Below are positions 2,179 to 13,074 of a stretch of DNA of 33,325 bases, piece after piece (position 1 is the stretch's first letter; the number at the start of each line of letters is the position of its first letter). Source of the DNA: an uncultured Lachnospiraceae bacterium. GTDB lineage: Bacteria; Bacillota; Clostridia; Lachnospirales; Lachnospiraceae. A program made the position numbers and the translations under genes. Below the pieces are notes generated by a model. The model was not told the origin of the DNA. It searched no databases and saw nothing but the letters and a program-made list of their open reading frames with translations. The stretch lies in the NCBI GenBank assembly GCA_947588845.1, contig CANQAR010000045.1:1-33325 (forward strand), read 5' to 3'.

Positions 2179-3549
2179 ATGAATCATTCAATAAAGACAA
2201 AGACTCCGGCAGGCGCCGCCTACCGGAACATTCTCCACCTCGCGCTGCCGATTGTGATCCAGAATCTGTTCAGCGCGGCGATCAGCTCCGCGGACGTTAT
2301 TATGCTGAACTCGGTCGGACAGTCTTCGATCTCAGCGGTGTCTCTGGCCGCTCAGTACACGAATGTGCTGTTTATGATCCTGTACGGACTCGGAACAGGT
2401 GCGACGCTGCTCTGCGCGCAGTACTGGGGAAAAGGCGATATCCGCGCGATTGAGAAGGTGGAGGGACTCGCTCTCCGTTTTTCCGTTGCGCTGTCCATGT
2501 TTGCCGCGGCGCTGGCCGCCGGGATACCGGGGATGATGATGCGCCTGTTTACCGAGGACCAGGAGCTGGTCACGATCGGAGCGGGCTATCTTCGCCTTAT
2601 CAGCGTCGGCTATCTCTGCTGGGGAATCTCGGAGATTTATCTCTCCGTGCTTCGCAGTATTGAGCGTGTCAAGATCAGTACGGCGCTCAATGTCAGCGCT
2701 CTGCTTCTGAATATTTTTCTGAATGCTGTGTTTATCTATGGATGGTTCGGGATGCCCCGGCTTGGGGCAAGAGGAGTGGCGCTTGCGACCACGATGTCGA
2801 GGATCGTGCAGCTTGCCGCCTGCTTTGCTGTCTCATCCCGTTCCCGCGACGTGCATCTGCGCCTGAGGATGATGTTTGAGAAAGGCGGAGTTTTGCTGAA
2901 CGATTTTGTGCGGCTTGCTTTGCCGGCCATGGCGAATGACGTGATATGGAGCCTCGGTTTTTCGATGTATTCCGTGATCATGGGACATATGGGGACGGAT
3001 GTCGTCGCCGCCAATTCTCTTGTGGTTGTTGTCCGGAACATCAGCACAGTATTCTGTTTCGCGGTCGCGAGCGCGGGCGGAATCTACATAGGCAAGGAGA
3101 TCGGGGCGAATGAGCCGGAGAAAGCGCGGGCGGATGCCTCGCGGACGATGAAGCTGACGGTTGCTACAGGACTTTTTGGAGGGCTGATCGTGCTGGCGCT
3201 GATGCCGGTGATGCAGAACTATGCTTCCCTGACAGAACAGGCCATGGGATATCTGCGCGTAATGATGTGGATCAATACATACTACATTATGGGAACCGCG
3301 GTCAACACAACTCTGATCGCGGGCGTATTCCGCGCGGGAGGCAATACCCGCTTTGGCCTGATCTGCGATACAATCGATATGTGGGTCTATGCGGTTCCGC
3401 TTGGATTTTTTGCGGCTTTCGTGCTGAAGCTTCCGCCGATGTGGGTGTATTTTCTGATTTGTACTGATGAATTTGTGAAATGGCCGTGGGTGATCCGGCA
3501 TTACCGGAGCGGGAAGTGGCTGAAGAATATCACGCGGGAGGATGTTTAA
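2179..3549 (+). CDS. MATE family efflux transporter
   Basis: This 456-residue protein is the right length for a 12-helix MATE (multidrug and toxin extrusion) antiporter, which exports drugs or metabolites across the inner membrane using a sodium or proton gradient. The N-terminus has the typical helix-1 pattern ILHLALPIVIQNLFSAAISS, and the second half repeats the pattern around LALPAMANDVIWSLGFSMYS. The motif GTGATLLCAQYWGKGD near residues 73-88 is characteristic of bacterial MATE proteins. GGAAAGGAAATTT just before the ATG serves as ribosome binding site. It lies 18 bases behind the chromate-transporter gene and 38 bases before the accessory block. Substrate cannot be predicted. Confidence 0.9.
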   Translation: MNHSIKTKTPAGAAYRNILHLALPIVIQNLFSAAISSADVIMLNSVGQSSISAVSLAAQYTNVLFMILYGLGTGATLLCAQYWGKGDIRAIEKVEGLALRFSVALSMFAAALAAGIPGMMMRLFTEDQELVTIGAGYLRLISVGYLCWGISEIYLSVLRSIERVKISTALNVSALLLNIFLNAVFIYGWFGMPRLGARGVALATTMSRIVQLAACFAVSSRSRDVHLRLRMMFEKGGVLLNDFVRLALPAMANDVIWSLGFSMYSVIMGHMGTDVVAANSLVVVVRNISTVFCFAVASAGGIYIGKEIGANEPEKARADASRTMKLTVATGLFGGLIVLALMPVMQNYASLTEQAMGYLRVMMWINTYYIMGTAVNTTLIAGVFRAGGNTRFGLICDTIDMWVYAVPLGFFAAFVLKLPPMWVYFLICTDEFVKWPWVIRHYRSGKWLKNITREDV

Positions 3550-3587
3550 TTTGCAGGATACGATGGCAGGAAAGGGTGTGAAGCGGA

Positions 3588-4016
3588 TTGCGGCTTACAG
3601 CAGATAAGAGAGAGTACCGGAAAGGATATACACGACATTTGACGGCTTACCGCAGTCTGTCCTCTGAAAATAAATATAGTCGAAGACTGCTTCTGTTTTA
3701 CAGCGTCGAATGTGGGTTAAAATATCTGCTGATGGACAGATGGGGAATTTTGAGCGTCAGTGAAATAGAATCCGATAAAGAAAAGGAGGGTCTCTTAGGG
3801 ACGCATAATCTGAGAGAAATCCTGAAAGCTTTGGGGCAGCAGGGAATGGTCAGCTTTTCTTCTTTTAAAACGTGTCATGGTGATTTCGTGAATATTGCAG
3901 AGTATCATCAGTTTTACAGGTATGGGATAAGGCCGGATGATAAAACGTCGGAAAAAGAAGAAAAATTTGAAGATGAACTGAGACAGGTGGCAGACTGGAT
4001 TAATGAGGTGATATAA
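3588..4016 (+). CDS. Small HEPN-like protein of accessory block
   Basis: This 142-residue protein opens the AT-richer block and lies 5 bases before the large NTPase gene, so the two are almost certainly co-translated. The pattern suggests a HEPN-type helical bundle: a helix pair ending in FYSVECGLKYLLM, then GTHNLREILKALG, then YHQFYRYGIR, and a closing amphipathic helix. This resembles HEPN proteins that accompany nucleotidyltransferases or act as RNases. The catalytic R-x(4-6)-H motif of active HEPN RNases is not obvious, so it may be a non-catalytic sensor or partner. The start is uncertain: TTG at 3588 follows an in-frame TGA at 3579-3581, and the next in-frame ATG is about 48 codons in. 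A different frame from ATG 3563 stops at 3607. HEPN assignment is an inference from pattern, not a search. Confidence 0.6.
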   Translation: MRLTADKREYRKGYTRHLTAYRSLSSENKYSRRLLLFYSVECGLKYLLMDRWGILSVSEIESDKEKEGLLGTHNLREILKALGQQGMVSFSSFKTCHGDFVNIAEYHQFYRYGIRPDDKTSEKEEKFEDELRQVADWINEVI

Positions 4017-4021
4017 AATAT

Positions 4022-6712
4022 ATGGAAGAAATTAAAAAATTATTTTCCTGGAAAGATGTTGAGAGGATTGCCCTGATGAATGAGGACAAATGGATTACAT
4101 TTGCAAATCGTATTGTTGTCTACACAGATTCTATGGAAATTTCTCTGAAAGATACACAGTACAAAAAACAGATGTCAAAAGTATTAGAAGACCTTTTTGA
4201 CGGACATTATGACAGAAAAAATAAAATAGTGCTGCTTGATCTGTGTGATGAAAAGATCAGCGTTGATTTTGATGGGGAAGAATTGCCGCGCAGCGGTAAA
4301 AAGATTCCGTTATTCAGAAAAATGATGTATCAGCAGTCTGCGTATGACGATGAAATGCCGAAGCAATGGGCATCGGACATACCTCTGATTGTTTTTCATT
4401 CATACAAAGGAGGTGTTGGCAGAACGTTGTCTCTGCTGGCATTTGCAAAAGCATGGGTTTCTGTACAGCCGAAGAATAAAAATAAACTGTTGATTGTGGA
4501 TTCTGATATCGAGGCTCCGGGATTGACATGGCTGCAGGAAGAGGGAAGCGAACAGCACTACAGCTATCTTGATTTTCTGGAAATGATTCAAAGCAGGAGA
4601 CAGGAGTTCCATCTGGATGAGATTACCGAACAGATCAGGAAGTCGGCGATTAAAATTTCAAATTCTAAAGAAGTAACAGAGCAGTATTTTATCCCTGCTT
4701 ACAGATATAAAGAACAGCTGCTTGATGTTTATTCCAAACCAGAAAATATTGTGACGAATATAAGCCGTGAGTATATCATACCGGAAGTCCTGATCAAGAT
4801 CGGCGAAAAGCTGGGAGTAAATGCAATACTGGTTGATCTGCGGGCCGGCTTAAGCGAATATTCCGCTCCGTTTTTATTTGATGCGAGAGTTAAAAAATAT
4901 TTTGTGACTTCCACATCTACCCAATCGGTTGAGGGGATCGGCATTATATTGGAAGAAGCAACAAAAGGGCTGAAAATTCAGGAATCTGCTCTTGAACCGG
5001 AAGTTTTTCTGACAATGATTCCGGATGAATTTGAAACGGACAAAAGAAGCAAAATTATGAGTCAGATTGCAGATTATTATGTTTGTGGCGAGAAGAACGA
5101 AGAGAAGAATAATGAAGAGAATAATGAAGAGAATAATGAAGAGAATAATGAAGAGAATAATGAAGATATAATGACAAATAGTTTTATCACGGAGCTGCAG
5201 TTTGATAGAAATCTGATTCATCTGGGTAATCTCCAGGACATTATGAGATCATTGGGGGGAAGCGAAGAATATTATGGCAGAATAGAAAAGCTTGTAAAAG
5301 ATAAGTATGTTGTTTTGGAGGAAACTGCAGATCAGGAAATTGAGGATGATCGTGAAGAGGTAATCAGAAATATTCATAATTTTGCAGAAAAGCAGGTGAC
5401 GGCGGAGGGAAATCAGACGTTTGGCATGCTGATCACTGATGCAATCAGCAATCTGAAAAGGAAATACAGAAGTGAAATTCCCTGTGCGGTTCTGCTGGGG
5501 GCAAAAGGATCCGGAAAAACATTTTTATATTGCGAGTTTTTAAAAAGGTTTACCTGGCAGAGATTTTGTATGGCAGTGGATACCAGTGAATCAGGGCAGC
5601 AGGATGCCTGCTTTGTTCCGGTTTTTGCGTCGAAAAATTCAGGTGATATAGCAGATTTGTTAAAGAATTGTATGGCCAATGCCAATCGTTATTTGACAAA
5701 TTATGAGATCAATGAGACAATCTGGCTGAATAATGAAGAAAAACTGGGTGATTTTATCCTTAGCAGTCATAATACGAGGGAATGGAGAAAATTCTGGGAA
5801 GAATTTCTGGTAAAATCAGTGGATGAAAGGCTTCAGAACTTTGCGGAATTGAACACGGGCCTGACGAAGAGGAAGAAAAAACTGATTTTTCTTATAGATG
5901 GTCTGGAGGAAACGCTGCAGGAAACCATAGCAGACAAATCACAGCAGTCGGCAGTTTCTGTTTTGTGTCAGGATATTGTGAAATCGATCGGCCTGCGGTA
6001 TAAAAATATCGGAATTATTATTTTTCTCCGGAAAGATATGGCACGAAACTCAATCAAAGTCAACTTTGAGCAGTTTAACCAGCTTTACAGTTCAATCGAG
6101 TTGAAATGGACAAGAGAAGAGGCGTTGAGGCTGGCTTTGTGGCTTGTGGCTCAGGCGCAGAAGGGTTTTTATACGGAGGATACGCCAATTGAAAGCGCTC
6201 TTCCGGATCTGGTTGAAAAACAGCTTCAAAAATTATGGGGGATAAAGCTGGGAAGAGTTTCTTCCAACGAAGCGTATTCTTCCAGATGGATACTGGCTGC
6301 TTTATCTGATTTTAACGGACAGCTGCAGGCAAGAGATATTGTGCGTTTTTTGGAGTACGCTACGGATACCGCAGGAAAACCGGTTTATAAAGACAGGTAC
6401 ATTATGCCGGCAGAGATCAGGAGTGCCGTGCCCAAATGCTCGCAGAAAAAGATTGATGAGATCAAAGATGAAATAAAGTATTTAAGACCCGTGCTGGAAA
6501 AACTGGAAAGGCTGGATGATGACAAAAAGATGCTGCCGTTTACTGCGGAGAAGGTCGATTTAAGCGCCAGCGAACAGGCTCTGATGAGTCGGGAGGGATA
6601 TCTGAGTGTTCAGGGAGAAAAATACTATCTTCCGGAGATTATCAGACATGCACTTGGTTTCAGATATGAAAAAGGAGCCAGACCGAAAGTTCTGTCACTT
6701 TCCAGGAATTGA
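4022..6712 (+). CDS. Large two-NTPase protein with KGGVGRT variant P-loop
   Basis: This 896-residue protein has two nucleotide-binding modules. The first is a MinD/ParA-like (SIMIBI) ATPase: K129-GGVGRT-135 is the deviant Walker A motif with the signature lysine kept but the usual GKT changed to GRT; DSDIEAPG near 160-168 is the switch segment, and ILVDLRAGLS (D272) is the Walker B region. The second has a classic P-loop GAKGSGKT at 493-500 and a Walker B FLIDGLEE with D626, in the style of AAA+ or STAND ATPases. About 115 residues precede the first domain and roughly 200 follow the second; I recognise neither. A low-complexity (NNEE)n spacer sits at residues 359-382. There are no membrane helices. 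Its neighbours are a HEPN-like protein and a PD-(D/E)XK protein. The sequence is visibly AT-richer than its flanks (21 of 60 G+C at 4201-4260 against 36 of 60 at 2521-2580), suggesting transfer. Defence or conflict function is inference. Confidence 0.8.
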   Translation: MEEIKKLFSWKDVERIALMNEDKWITFANRIVVYTDSMEISLKDTQYKKQMSKVLEDLFDGHYDRKNKIVLLDLCDEKISVDFDGEELPRSGKKIPLFRKMMYQQSAYDDEMPKQWASDIPLIVFHSYKGGVGRTLSLLAFAKAWVSVQPKNKNKLLIVDSDIEAPGLTWLQEEGSEQHYSYLDFLEMIQSRRQEFHLDEITEQIRKSAIKISNSKEVTEQYFIPAYRYKEQLLDVYSKPENIVTNISREYIIPEVLIKIGEKLGVNAILVDLRAGLSEYSAPFLFDARVKKYFVTSTSTQSVEGIGIILEEATKGLKIQESALEPEVFLTMIPDEFETDKRSKIMSQIADYYVCGEKNEEKNNEENNEENNEENNEENNEDIMTNSFITELQFDRNLIHLGNLQDIMRSLGGSEEYYGRIEKLVKDKYVVLEETADQEIEDDREEVIRNIHNFAEKQVTAEGNQTFGMLITDAISNLKRKYRSEIPCAVLLGAKGSGKTFLYCEFLKRFTWQRFCMAVDTSESGQQDACFVPVFASKNSGDIADLLKNCMANANRYLTNYEINETIWLNNEEKLGDFILSSHNTREWRKFWEEFLVKSVDERLQNFAELNTGLTKRKKKLIFLIDGLEETLQETIADKSQQSAVSVLCQDIVKSIGLRYKNIGIIIFLRKDMARNSIKVNFEQFNQLYSSIELKWTREEALRLALWLVAQAQKGFYTEDTPIESALPDLVEKQLQKLWGIKLGRVSSNEAYSSRWILAALSDFNGQLQARDIVRFLEYATDTAGKPVYKDRYIMPAEIRSAVPKCSQKKIDEIKDEIKYLRPVLEKLERLDDDKKMLPFTAEKVDLSASEQALMSREGYLSVQGEKYYLPEIIRHALGFRYEKGARPKVLSLSRN
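5096..5167 (+). repeat. 12-bp tandem repeat inside the NTPase gene
   Basis: Four perfect copies of AATAATGAAGAG run from 5108 to 5155, with a degenerate copy before (5096-5107) and one ending in GAT after (5156-5167). They encode an Asn-Asn-Glu-Glu spacer between the two ATPase modules. The unit is a multiple of three, so copy-number changes would alter linker length without a frameshift. Confidence 0.9.
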
Positions 6713-6762
6713 CAGCTGATAAAAAATCTGCCCGAAACAGAGTTCAGGGAAGGAGGCTCGAC

Positions 6763-8463
6763 ATGGCACGGACGGCCGCCATCGGCAAACAGGATTTTGA
6801 GAAAGTTATAACGGAAAACTGTTTTTACGTGGATAAGACCAGGTTTATAAAAGAATGGTGGGAGAGAAAGGACGACGTGACGCTGATCACCCGTCCGCGC
6901 CGTTTTGGGAAAACCCTGAATATGAGCATGCTCGAAAAGTTTTTTTCACTGGAATACGAAGGCAGAGGGGATCTGTTTAAGAATCTTTTCATATGGAAAG
7001 AAGAGAAATACCGCATTTTGCAGGGAACTTATCCGGTGATCAGCCTGACGTTTGCAAACGTGAAAGAAACAGATTTTGCAAAGACGAAGCGGCGGATCAA
7101 TCAGATTATCTCAGAACTCTACAATAAAAACAGTTTTCTTTTAAAGAGCGATTTTTTGACGGAGGAAGAGGAGTCATATTTTCGGAGTGTCTCCGCGGAT
7201 ATGGATGAGGTATCCGCGACAATGGCCATTCACAGGATGACAGGATTTCTTGCCCGCTATTATGGGAAAAAGGTGATCCTGCTGCTGGATGAGTATGATA
7301 CGCCCATGCAGGAAGCGTATATAAACGGATACTGGGAAGAACTGACATCTTTTACGCGCAGTCTGTTTCATGCGGCGTTTAAGACCAATCCTTACCTGGA
7401 GCGGGCTGTCATGACAGGAATCACGAGGGTGAGCAGGGAATCGGTCTTTTCTGACTTGAATAATCTGAAAGTTGTCACGACGACATCCGATGAATATGCA
7501 GACTGCTTTGGCCTGACGGAGCAGGAGGTATTCGACGCGCTGGATGAGTATGGACTGTCTGACCGGAAACAGGAAGTAAAGCGCTGGTATGACGGTTTTA
7601 CGTTCGGCGGTGTCAGAGATATCTATAATCCCTGGTCGATCGTTAATTACCTGGACACGGGAAAGGTAAGCGCGTACTGGGCGAACAGCAGCAGCAATGG
7701 GCTGATCAGCAGGCTGGTGCGCGAGGGAAGGCCGGAAATCAAAAAGGATTTTGAGGAACTGATGAACGGGAAAATTCTCGAGAAAGTGATTGATGAGCAG
7801 ATTGTCTATCAGCAGCTGTCAGAGGACGAAGATGCAGTCTGGAGTCTGCTGCTTGCGGGAGGCTATTTGCGGCTGGAGGGATGCATCTCAGATCCGTGGT
7901 CTTTGGAAACGGTGTACCGCTTATCTCTGACAAATCTGGAAGTGCGCTTTACGTTTGCCAGAATGATCCGAGGATGGTTTGCGGGAAGCAGAACAGAGTA
8001 TCATGGATTTGTGAAAGCGCTGTTGCAGGATGATCTTCAGGCCATGAATGTATACATGAATCGTGTGGCTCTTGAAACATTCAGTTATTTTGATACAGGA
8101 AACAGATACTCAAAACATGCGGAGCCTGAACGTTTTTATCATGGATTTGTTCTGGGGCTTCTTGTGGATCTGGCGGGCAGGTATGCTGTTGTTTCCAACC
8201 GGGAGAGCGGTCTGGGAAGATATGATGTGATGCTGGAACCAGTGTCTTCGGAGGATCCGGCTGTGATCATGGAATTTAAAGTCCGGGATCCCCGCAGTGA
8301 AGAAACGCTGCAGGAAACGGTGAAAAAAGCGTTGAAACAGATTGATGACAAAAAATATGAGACGAATCTGATTCAAAAAGGAATCCCGTCAGACCGGATC
8401 AGAAAATACGGATTTGCGTTTGAAGGGAAGAAAGTGCTGATTGGAAAGTCCGAAACAAAGTGA
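6763..8463 (+). CDS. AAA-ATPase-like / PD-(D/E)XK nuclease family protein
   Basis: This 566-residue protein matches the widespread pairing of an AAA-ATPase-like N-terminus (Pfam AAA-ATPase_like) with a PDDEXK_9-type C-terminus. It has the family opening IGKQDFEKVITEN..YVDKT, a Walker A of the form RPRRFGKT (residues 44-51), and Walker B ILLLDEYDTPM (D176, E177). The C-terminus has D488 in GRYDVML and E504-F-K506, the D...ExK pattern of restriction-like nucleases. Cellular function of the family is unproven; it is common in gut Clostridia and Bacteroidota. I chose ATG 6763 because AGGAGG (6751-6756) sits 6 bases before it; a frame extension to TTG 6709 would overlap the previous stop but lacks such a site. 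Base composition is intermediate between the NTPase gene and holA. It may belong to the accessory block or be an independent passenger. Confidence 0.85.
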   Translation: MARTAAIGKQDFEKVITENCFYVDKTRFIKEWWERKDDVTLITRPRRFGKTLNMSMLEKFFSLEYEGRGDLFKNLFIWKEEKYRILQGTYPVISLTFANVKETDFAKTKRRINQIISELYNKNSFLLKSDFLTEEEESYFRSVSADMDEVSATMAIHRMTGFLARYYGKKVILLLDEYDTPMQEAYINGYWEELTSFTRSLFHAAFKTNPYLERAVMTGITRVSRESVFSDLNNLKVVTTTSDEYADCFGLTEQEVFDALDEYGLSDRKQEVKRWYDGFTFGGVRDIYNPWSIVNYLDTGKVSAYWANSSSNGLISRLVREGRPEIKKDFEELMNGKILEKVIDEQIVYQQLSEDEDAVWSLLLAGGYLRLEGCISDPWSLETVYRLSLTNLEVRFTFARMIRGWFAGSRTEYHGFVKALLQDDLQAMNVYMNRVALETFSYFDTGNRYSKHAEPERFYHGFVLGLLVDLAGRYAVVSNRESGLGRYDVMLEPVSSEDPAVIMEFKVRDPRSEETLQETVKKALKQIDDKKYETNLIQKGIPSDRIRKYGFAFEGKKVLIGKSETK

Positions 8464-8600
8464 AGGGGGCATACATGGAAAATGCCGCTTTCGCGCAGCC
8501 AAGCCTGATGTGAGAACGGATCCAGGGCATATTTTCTTCCGTTGATTTTTGCGGACGATGAACCTGACGGCGCCATGTTTTTGGAAAAGGAGAGATTTCC

Positions 8601-9584
8601 ATGAAAAATCTGAATGAGGATATCAAAACCCGGAATTTCCGTCCTGTATACCTGTTCTACGGAGATGAGGCGTATCTGAAATCCGTGTATAAAAACAGGC
8701 TGAAGAATGCGGTGCTTTCCGAGGGAGATACGATGAACCTGACGGTATTTGAGGGAAAGGACTGCGATCCCGGTCGGATCATCGCGCAGGCGGAGACGAT
8801 GCCTTTTTTTGCGGACCGCCGGCTGATTATCGTGGAAAACAGCGGATTTTTTAAGAGCGCTTCACCGGAGCTTGCCGGGTACATTCCGCAGATGCCGTCC
8901 GAGACGATTCTGCTGTTTGTTGAGAATGAGGTGGAAAAGCGTGGGAAACTTTACAAGACGGTGAACAGCTGCGGCAGGGTCACGGAAATGGCGCGGCAGG
9001 ATGCAAAGACACTGACGTCCTGGGTGCTTGGGACGCTCAAAAGGGAAAAGAAACGCATTCAGAGATCCACACTGGATCTGTTTCTGGCATCCACCGGAAA
9101 TGACATGGAAAATATCTCGAACGAGCTTGAAAAACTGCTGTGCTACACTGCCGGAAGCGATGCGATTCACAGGGAAGATGTGGAAGCAGTCTGTACCGTC
9201 ACGACGGAAAACAAAGTTTTTGACATGATCAATGCCATGGCCGAAAAGAAACAGAAGAAGGCGCTTGATATGTTTTATGACCTGCTTTCCAACAAAGAGC
9301 GCCCACTTGGGATTCTGTATCTGATGGCGCGGCAGTTCAATCAGCTCTGTCAGATCAAGGAACTGCGCGAGCAGGGGTTTGACCGCGAGATCATCGCGCA
9401 GAAGATGGGTGTGCAGTCTTTTGTCATCAGAAGAGGGATGAACCAGGCCGCATATTTTGAAAAAGAAGCGCTGCGGCAGGCGGTTGTGGACTGTGTGGAG
9501 GCCGAGACTGCCGTGAAGACGGGGCGGATGGGAGATCAGATGGCCGTGGAGATGATCCTGGTCAGGTACAGTGCTTCTGTATAG
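8601..9584 (+). CDS. holA: DNA polymerase III subunit delta
   Basis: At 327 residues this is the usual size for HolA, the clamp-loader subunit that opens the beta sliding clamp at the replication fork. The N-terminus PVYLFYGDEAYLKSVYKNRL matches the family opening, and the middle segment with GNDMENISNELEKL and the later NKERPLGILYLMARQFNQL are typical. A GGAAAAGGAGAG site precedes the ATG at 8601. In Clostridia holA normally follows comEC and precedes rpsT; rpsT is present on the opposite strand, but comEC is not upstream here, where the accessory block lies instead. The 3-prime end, including the stop codon, is part of a 20-bp direct repeat that recurs at 9916-9935. Confidence 0.93.
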   Translation: MKNLNEDIKTRNFRPVYLFYGDEAYLKSVYKNRLKNAVLSEGDTMNLTVFEGKDCDPGRIIAQAETMPFFADRRLIIVENSGFFKSASPELAGYIPQMPSETILLFVENEVEKRGKLYKTVNSCGRVTEMARQDAKTLTSWVLGTLKREKKRIQRSTLDLFLASTGNDMENISNELEKLLCYTAGSDAIHREDVEAVCTVTTENKVFDMINAMAEKKQKKALDMFYDLLSNKERPLGILYLMARQFNQLCQIKELREQGFDREIIAQKMGVQSFVIRRGMNQAAYFEKEALRQAVVDCVEAETAVKTGRMGDQMAVEMILVRYSASV

Positions 9585-11598: not shown

Positions 11599-13074
11599 GT
11601 GATTGTTACGCGCAACGACAGCTGGCTGCAGAGAGTACTGTATCTGATCATTGCAGTACTTGGGGTTTATATTGTATACAAAAGCGGGGCGATCCTTTTG
11701 AGAGACAGGGAAACACATCCGGTATCCGGTTCGGGCGTGGTTCAGAAGAATGTGGAAGATACGGCAGTGCGCACTCTGGCGCCGGGATATGCGGCGGCAG
11801 TGGAAGGAAAAGGGAGAGAAGGCTGGCTCGCGGGCTTTATGGAGCCGCTCGTCCCGGTCTACAGTTATATGGCAGAGGCGCGGGGAGGCGGAGGCGAGAC
11901 AGACACCGGGCAGGAAGAGCCTGCCGCGGAACCAGGTCAGGAAACGGCGGAGAGCAGCGGGGAAGGTGCCGATGCGTCTCAGCCTGCCGCAGAGCCAGGT
12001 CAGGAAACTGTGGAGAACGGCGGGGAAGGTGCCGATGCGCCCCGGACTGCTGTGGAGCCAGGTCAGGAAACTGTGGAGAGCGGCGGAAAATCTGCGGGAA
12101 GATCCGGTACAAAAGCGGGGCAGAAAACTGCGGAGGAAACCGCCGGGCTGTCTGCTGATGCGTCAGAGGAACAGGAGAAAATGTCTGCCGATGAACGGAC
12201 TCAGGGAGATTCCGCATTGCCGTCTGAGGAAAGCGCAGCTGCCGGGGATACGGAGCAGGATGGACAGACTATGGAAGTGTTTGGGCGCAGAAATGGTCTT
12301 CCTCTTTCCCTGCTGAAACAGATCCGGGATTTTGATTATCTGCTGTCCGGCTATTATACGCTTGACGAGAGCACGTCGATTGACAGCAGTCTGCTTGACG
12401 CGCAGGATCTGCTCTCAAGAGATCTCAGTATTCAGAAAAATGTGAACGAACCTCAGATTCTGATCTATCACACACATTCGCAGGAAGAATTTGCGGATTC
12501 CGTGGAAGGTGATGTGAGTACATCGATCGTGGGAATGGGAGAGGTGCTCACAGAGCTGCTCCGCGATAAGTACGGCTATCAGGTGATCCATGATACAGGT
12601 GTTTATGATCTGGTGAACGGTGTTCTGGACCGAAGCGCCGCGTACGACTACGCGAGAGAATCGGTGGAACAGATCCTTGCGGAAAATCCCGCCATTGAGG
12701 TTGTGATTGATCTGCACCGGGACGGAGTGGACGGTTATAAGTTTGTGACGGAGGTCAACGGAAAGCCGACTTCAAAAATTATGTTTTTCAACGGACTGTC
12801 GAGGGATGCATATGGAAATCCGCTGACCGGGCTTGAAAATCCGTATATCGAGGATAATCTGGCATTTTCCCTGCAGATGCAGCTGCTCGCAAGGCAGCAG
12901 TATCCTGATTTTACGCGAAATATTTATTTAAAAGCGGAGCGGTACAATCTCCATCTGCGCGCCCGGTCCCTGCTGATCGAAGCGGGGACGCAGCTGAACA
13001 CGGTGGAGGAAGAGCGAAATGCGATGGAACCGCTCGCGGCGCTGCTTGCGCAGGTGCTGGGAGGGGCCGGGTAA
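11599..13074 (+). CDS. spoIIP: Stage II sporulation protein P
   Basis: SpoIIP is a membrane-anchored peptidoglycan amidase/endopeptidase that works with SpoIID and SpoIIM in engulfment of the forespore. The 491-residue protein has one N-terminal membrane segment (VLYLIIAVLGVYIVYKSGAILL, about residues 11-32). A long Glu/Ala/Gly-rich linker follows (about 85-230) and includes a 21-residue tandem repeat. The catalytic domain has the signature ILIYHTHSQEEF (H291, H293, E296) and later EVVIDLHRDG. The start is taken as GTG 11599, which gives a short cytoplasmic tail before the membrane helix; its ribosome binding site is weak, so the start is uncertain by a few codons. The unusually long linker makes it larger than Bacillus SpoIIP. 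Confidence 0.93.
   Translation: MIVTRNDSWLQRVLYLIIAVLGVYIVYKSGAILLRDRETHPVSGSGVVQKNVEDTAVRTLAPGYAAAVEGKGREGWLAGFMEPLVPVYSYMAEARGGGGETDTGQEEPAAEPGQETAESSGEGADASQPAAEPGQETVENGGEGADAPRTAVEPGQETVESGGKSAGRSGTKAGQKTAEETAGLSADASEEQEKMSADERTQGDSALPSEESAAAGDTEQDGQTMEVFGRRNGLPLSLLKQIRDFDYLLSGYYTLDESTSIDSSLLDAQDLLSRDLSIQKNVNEPQILIYHTHSQEEFADSVEGDVSTSIVGMGEVLTELLRDKYGYQVIHDTGVYDLVNGVLDRSAAYDYARESVEQILAENPAIEVVIDLHRDGVDGYKFVTEVNGKPTSKIMFFNGLSRDAYGNPLTGLENPYIEDNLAFSLQMQLLARQQYPDFTRNIYLKAERYNLHLRARSLLIEAGTQLNTVEEERNAMEPLAALLAQVLGGAG
11929..12117 (+). repeat. 63-bp tandem repeat in spoIIP linker
   Basis: Three units begin at 11929, 11992 and 12055, a 63-base (21-codon) period, each opening with a GAR CCA GGT CAG GAA AC sequence and encoding EPGQET.ES.GEGADA. 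Units 1 and 2 are closest; unit 3 decays in its second half. The repeat lies in the low-complexity linker between membrane anchor and enzyme domain. Confidence 0.85.

Follow-up and report, generated by a model that had tools for sequence, protein, structure and literature searches.

A putative toxin-antitoxin-type gene pair, encoding a HEPN-like protein and a double ATPase, inserted upstream of holA in an uncultured Lachnospiraceae bacterium

Upstream of holA in the genome of an uncultured Lachnospiraceae bacterium (assembly GCA_947588845.1) lie three genes on one strand, encoding a HEPN-like protein, a protein with two ATPase regions and a protein of the PD-(D/E)XK type. The question raised by this locus is whether they constitute a defence system, as was suggested when the DNA was first described from its sequence (the original prediction), and which of the genes would belong to it. 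The stretch analysed, referred to here as the window, comprises the 33,325 nt of contig CANQAR010000045.1, which is contig C45 of the 5.06 Mb source genome (G000). We conclude that the functional unit is probably the gene pair at 3588-6712, and that this represents, with a probability of roughly 0.6, a horizontally moving module of the toxin-antitoxin or abortive infection type in which the double ATPase controls the HEPN-like protein. The features of the locus, beginning with this pair, are:

3588..4016, + strand: gene for the small HEPN-like protein, an open reading frame (ORF) of 142 amino acids (aa) with a TTG start; E41xxxK45, H73 and R111-Y112 are kept, without Rx4-6H
4022..6712, + strand: double ATPase gene, 896 aa, equivalent to PDC-M28B fused to PDC-M28C; based on the ORF, PADLOC profiles and full-length relatives
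4370..5314, + strand: SIMIBI (MinD/ParA-like) ATPase domain, residues ~117-431, with Walker A KGGVGRT at 129-135 and a Walker-B-like DLRAG at 272-276
5483..6709, + strand: second P-loop (STAND/AAA-like) ATPase region and C-terminal extension, residues ~488-896, with Walker A GAKGSGKT at 493-500 and a Walker-B-like DGLEE at 626-630; also based on NF047389, NACHT and AAA_16 scores, all below threshold, and on invariant alignment columns
6709..8463, + strand: probable passenger gene, 584 aa from TTG 6709, with Pfam matches to PF09820 (AAA-ATPase_like) and PF08011 (PDDEXK_9)
3550..8585, no strand: stretch missing from the closest same-genus locus, which has an empty site between the MATE gene and holA; from alignment with L150 (genome G006)

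The first two genes are found together with great regularity. Scanning genome contigs with the single large protein alone gave no match, and an alignment-based scan was needed: the profile alignment gave 104 genome matches, the best 80 of which were kept, corresponding to 77 distinct loci. Of the 77, 71 have the small gene immediately upstream, in some cases as a fragment or broken copy. As for the six exceptions, L049, L085 and L087 are cut by the end of the contig, two are broken loci (L048 and L068), and L060 has no small gene despite the presence of upstream sequence. Searching in the other direction, the small protein matched ten places in eight of 397 genomes of the family (the source genome included), and within the roughly 1.5 kb of flank taken the large gene adjoins it in all ten, the small gene being partial in L210 and the large gene degraded in L212. 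Similarly, among 299 genomes of the phylum, NF047398, the profile matched by the SIMIBI domain, exceeded its cut-off at nine places in eight genomes, including the window, and the small protein lies upstream at all nine; the small protein is a fragment in G277 and was found by translation in G071, and some of the small proteins were recognised by motif only. The distances between small proteins follow those between their large partners (r = 0.956, 60 pairs), to an extent reached in none of 999 permutations, with shared host descent contributing to the correlation. The two genes are a reciprocal pair, recurring in many genomes beyond chance, which bears out the original prediction on a point named there as a check, whether the small protein accompanies the large one.

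Most relatives of the large protein carry the label Lachnospiraceae, with other record titles naming Treponema, Bacteroidales, Tumebacillus, Domibacillus and Candidatus Aminicenantes, as well as bins recorded as actinobacterial and as Methanothrix. The pair is patchy and mobile, travelling as one unit through scattered microbes, and is found in a number of different arrangements. In L120 and L123/L196 it is split into a HEPN-like gene, a KGGVGR ATPase and a second ATPase, and in L011, from the same genus as the window, the small gene is accompanied by a separate ATPase. At a further locus of this genus (L012:1141-2445, minus strand, in G024), one frame joins a HEPN-like N terminus to a KGGMGRT ATPase, and the gene for the second ATPase adjoins it; this is either a natural fusion or the result of an internal deletion. 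Broken copies of the large gene in L048, L068, L083, L088 and L212 suggest that the pair decays in some hosts.

The block containing the pair is an insertion relative to the closest relative. At L150, a chromate-transporter-like gene, a MATE gene (94.5% identical to that of the window) and holA (82%) are directly consecutive, and since the flanks of the window align to this locus only up to 3549 and from 8586, with 121 non-aligning bases between, the block at 3550-8585 is absent from it. The pairing of the MATE and chromate-transporter genes upstream of holA was found in L150 only, of 20 same-genus upstream regions, hence the site appears to be variable in general. The view that the block takes the place of a comEC gene normally preceding holA had to be abandoned: comEC sits on another contig (C9), and tblastn at 1e-10 gave no match to it ahead of holA at any of 20 loci from the same genus, four of which (L151, L152, L160 and L169) have under 6 kb of available sequence on that side. 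No long repeat pair at both ends of the block was revealed when 3300-8900 was searched. An exact 16-base repeat (8555-8570 and 8730-8745) spans its right boundary, one copy lying before holA and the other within it. The split HEPN and ATPase form of L011 (G004, contig C118) is on the same contig as holA, around 10 kb away, hence cassettes of this type may have a hot spot in the holA region.

The arrangement of the genes agrees with the first description, the same-direction ORFs at 3588-4016 and 4022-6712 being separated by 5 bases. Their richness in AT is likewise evident, with a G+C fraction of 0.415 and 0.405 in the first two genes and 0.469 in the third, against 0.503 in the window, 0.551 in the MATE gene and 0.512 in holA. 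In a scan for promoters and terminators, signals were no commoner than in shuffled sequence.

The large protein does unite a MinD-like ATPase, having a KGGVGRT loop, with a second P-loop ATPase in a single chain. The SIMIBI domain scores 141 bits against NF047398 (cut-off 90) and has a ParA/MinD fold with a deviant Walker A motif. The top structural matches of the large protein are ParA and MinD, the search being filled by the MinD half and the fold of the second ATPase half not being separated out by it; a sequence search against solved structures gave nothing useful. Unlike other MinD/ParA-type SIMIBI ATPases, this protein has arginine in place of the P-loop lysine, KGGVGRT being invariant (50/50), and it carries an added N-terminal domain in addition to the fused second ATPase. 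The latter has its Walker A motif at 493-500 and scores 67.5 bits against NF047389, under the cut-off of 75; its Pfam scores, 20.4 bits for NACHT (cut-off 26.7) and 18.1 for AAA_16 (cut-off 32.6), are also below threshold. A 12-bp tandem repeat of 5.8 copies (5106-5174) encodes a run of EENN in a linker of the MinD-like domain, and this run is seen in no other member among the alignment rows shown, which are one in two. A short gene of Microcystis phage Mic1 (MN013189.1, 8171-8791; L171), labelled as ParA family, resembles residues 474-701, in the second ATPase, at 25% identity.

For the 142 aa protein, the suspected HEPN-like helical fold is borne out by a confident predicted structure. Conservation was assessed in 62 family members, comprising 71 small proteins, less ten whose length fell outside 110-185 aa, plus that of the window. 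No variation is seen at Y38, H73, R111 or Y112, and each of E41, G43 and K45 is present in 61 of the 62, such that the Ex3[KR] motif, which is common to many HEPN families (PMC3710099), is retained through E41 and K45. According to the same source, HEPN-T proteins can have D for the H of the canonical RNase motif, with another H conserved elsewhere. The family of the window agrees with this description in having Ex3K, a further conserved H and D or E near the place of the missing H, the acidic residue lying 5-7 positions past R111 in 52 of the 62, in a stretch that is acid-rich, such that this may be due to chance. The likeness to HEPN-T (PF05168) extends to the fold, and PF05168 exceeds its cut-off in three of 17 small partners scanned singly, these three being from distant relatives.

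The closest library entry is PDC-M28, a candidate defence system of PADLOC (PADLOC-DB 2.0.0) with proteins A, B and C, compared here by profiles alone; no paper mentioning it by name was found in the literature searched. The large protein matches both PDC-M28B (PDLC04559, E 3.3e-14; profile positions 53-407 of 438, residues 44-406) and PDC-M28C (PDLC04561, E 5.7e-14; partial coverage, the best stretch being profile positions 47-249 of 480, residues 488-703). As PDC-M28B when used as a genome-wide probe matches any ParA (396 of 398 genomes and 14 of 14 controls), only a few strong matches of it were used. The split relative L120, with its small HEPN-like gene, KGGVGR ATPase and second ATPase, is also like PDC-M28, whereas the window has B and C in one 896 aa chain, in a two-gene form, and a weak match to A. 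For the latter protein, a profile-profile comparison with six distant partners gave 95.6% over 57 columns. The pair is a fused, two-gene variant of an already-listed kind of candidate.

The closest published idea (PMC3710099) is the dyad of a HEPN protein of the MAE_18760 family and a ParA/Soj ATPase, predicted there to be a toxin-antitoxin system. In both cases, a HEPN gene adjoins that of a SIMIBI ParA-like ATPase. However, MAE_18760 is described there as having Rx4-6H and other fusions, whereas here the motif is absent from a solo HEPN-like protein of 142 aa, and the ATPase shares its chain with a second NTPase.

In some relatives, the pair is associated with a repeated host gene, which we take to be spore maturation protein A-like (L018:3559-4212; the complete L018 copy gave no match to Pfam). 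All or part of this gene is present in the flanks of 10 of the 77 loci (L017, L018, L019, L020, L022, L024, L029, L039, L044 and L088), and in seven of the 77 (L017, L018, L019, L022, L029, L039 and L044) pieces of its 3' part flank the pair on both sides. These pieces are close to the full copy at the nucleotide level (for example, 347/354 in L044 and 290/300 in L017). At least four copies, with other genes between, are found in three loci, over the following spans:

L018:3559-13076, array of host-gene copies
L019:5996-15231, array of host-gene copies
L029:1627-13058, array of host-gene copies

Since host-gene pieces flank the pair and other genes lie between the copies, the pair appears to be one unit of a repeat-bounded array at these loci; that of the window is not inside such an array. 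The array genes of L018 include an MNT and PF05168 HEPN pair, a HipA N-terminal protein and a PF09820/PF08011 protein; a PIN toxin domain is encoded in the array of L019, a HipA_C protein in L029, a BrnT toxin in L039, and Cas3 and Cas5 in L017. Others have no defence-like match (radical SAM, DUF2284 and DUF5688), and eight of the 20 scanned, including the host gene, matched no family. Elsewhere, hsdR and a recombinase are near a copy on a Nostoc plasmid, HsdM and a specificity subunit adjoin L202, the own ATPase gene of which is broken, and a CHAT, NB-ARC and TPR protein is encoded close upstream of the pair on a Candidatus Aminicenantes contig (L072:6572-9307).

We favour a toxin-antitoxin- or abortive-infection-like module because of the candidacy of PDC-M28, the combination of a HEPN-like protein with NTPase switches, the mobility and patchiness of the pair, the arrays, a few of the neighbours found elsewhere and the precedent of the MAE_18760 dyad. 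In such a module the two proteins would form a complex, and the double ATPase may hold the HEPN-like protein in check. An infection or stress signal would then cause a nucleotide-driven rearrangement, by which the HEPN-like protein might be released or activated, acting perhaps as an atypical RNase or as a nucleotide-binding adaptor. More tentatively, and with rather less confidence than in the module as such, we propose that a SIMIBI (KGGVGR) and a STAND-like ATPase in one chain form a nucleotide switch of two stages, which would guard a protein of HEPN fold whose active site is atypical (E41, K45, H73 and R111, with an acidic residue standing in for the histidine of Rx4-6H). Such a system would occur split into HEPN, B and C genes, as two genes, and perhaps with HEPN and ATPase fused; in certain gut bacteria it would move as one of the units in tandem arrays built up at the 3' end of a single host gene, beside toxin-antitoxin and clustered regularly interspaced short palindromic repeat (CRISPR) units.

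A number of observations weigh against the module interpretation. The small protein of the window has no Pfam match to PF05168 or any other HEPN family at E ≤1, and PF05168 is not among the best 25 of the 27 families found for 59 members. Its match to PDC-M28A (PDLC04558) is weak (E 0.022); of the 59 family members, 21 reach E ≤1, the best with 2.7e-4. The canonical HEPN RNase motif is absent, R111 being present in 62 of 62 members and an H at R+5 to R+7 in two. The motif is also lost in some accepted HEPN families (PMC3710099), and the small protein may have an atypical activity. The fold expected of a HEPN nuclease effector stands, but since the canonical motif is not conserved, such a role is plausible only by means of an atypical site.

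Further points on the same side come from the genomic context. Viral contigs contained 31 stretches matching the pattern, none of them a relative, and plasmids and phages gave one partial match each. Several of the array loci are closely related, and therefore non-independent, and the array genes were chosen by eye. When the 88 proteins next to the pair, one on either side at the 44 loci (of 77) that have long flanks, were compared with 86 from around five positions further out (E 1e-8), 39 PADLOC families were found near the pair and 100 far from it; these are counts of families rather than proteins, and among the best 25 of each list, which are named, the near set includes Cas3, type I restriction and DrmC, and the far set Cas4, Cas1, pAgo, Old and AriA. 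The hypothesis of defence enrichment in the nearest flanks was therefore rejected. This test is a blunt one, because array loci often have a repeat fragment nearest to the pair, with the array genes falling in the far set. As regards the location in defence islands, named in the original prediction as a check, the pair shares arrays with toxin-antitoxin and cas genes in some genomes, and its immediate flanks show no enrichment in PADLOC families. Likewise, a part in defence is favoured by PDC-M28 and by the block being an insertion, and not by those flanks. No experiment on the pair was found in the literature searched.

The main rival, which we regard as unlikely, is that the HEPN protein has no catalytic role and instead binds nucleotides as a sensor or adaptor for the ATPase protein, with the harmful output residing in the large protein, for instance in its highly conserved C-terminal part. 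The lack of Rx4-6H would be accommodated by such a role. However, the large protein is without a recognised effector domain, and the acidic residue past R111, with the reservation as to chance made above, recalls the D-for-H substitution of HEPN-T, such that the HEPN protein may yet be catalytic.

It is considerably less probable that the pair serves not in defence but as a regulatory or partition-like device borne by mobile DNA, the HEPN partner tuning a ParA-like switch. ATPases of the MinD/ParA type of the SIMIBI class are usually positioning or partition switches, and both the ParA and MinD structural matches and the absence of PADLOC enrichment in the nearest flanks are in keeping with this. 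Conversely, the arrays are shared with toxin-antitoxin and cas genes, the plasmid match is a single one, and there is no gene family that neighbours the pair in the majority of loci, parB-like genes and centromere-like repeats not having been searched for.

The third gene, suggested at the outset to be very common alone and possibly a passenger, fits that description. Both its PF09820 and PF08011 matches are over cut-off; the source genome has 101 matches to PF09820, some of them fragments, and a relative occurs in the available flanks of only seven of the 77 loci, never less than 856 bp from the pair. The TTG at 6709, which overlaps the large gene, is a doubtful start, and ATG 6764, preceded by a purine-rich stretch resembling a ribosome binding site, is the likelier one. 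The earlier reading, in which the three genes form a defence system and the PD-(D/E)XK protein is an effector, can draw on the shared direction and close start of this gene, on the absence of the entire block from the closest relative and on L018 and L045, where no other large ORF comes between the pair and a relative of the gene (distances of 856 and 888 bp), but it is highly improbable, and was rejected, given how scattered the family is and that in L018 the relative lies beyond a repeat copy and thus in another array unit. The third gene is probably a passenger, at most a neighbour in arrays of like kind. The 101 PF09820 matches represent a large family expansion in G000. Elsewhere in the window, a 63-bp tandem repeat of 2.7 copies (11918-12086) lies within a 491 aa ORF starting at 11599.

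These results give an anatomy to PDC-M28, an otherwise anonymous candidate, in the form of a HEPN-like protein, a SIMIBI switch and a second ATPase, the first two of which are reciprocally tied across distant genomes. They also extend the 2013 prediction of a HEPN and ParA/Soj dyad (PMC3710099) to a family whose HEPN protein is without the usual RNase motif. The arrays in relatives suggest a hot spot that may hold more such units. As a simple two-gene cassette, the pair makes it possible to test whether a HEPN protein without Rx4-6H can act as a toxin, and what part a MinD-like ATPase may play in a conflict system.
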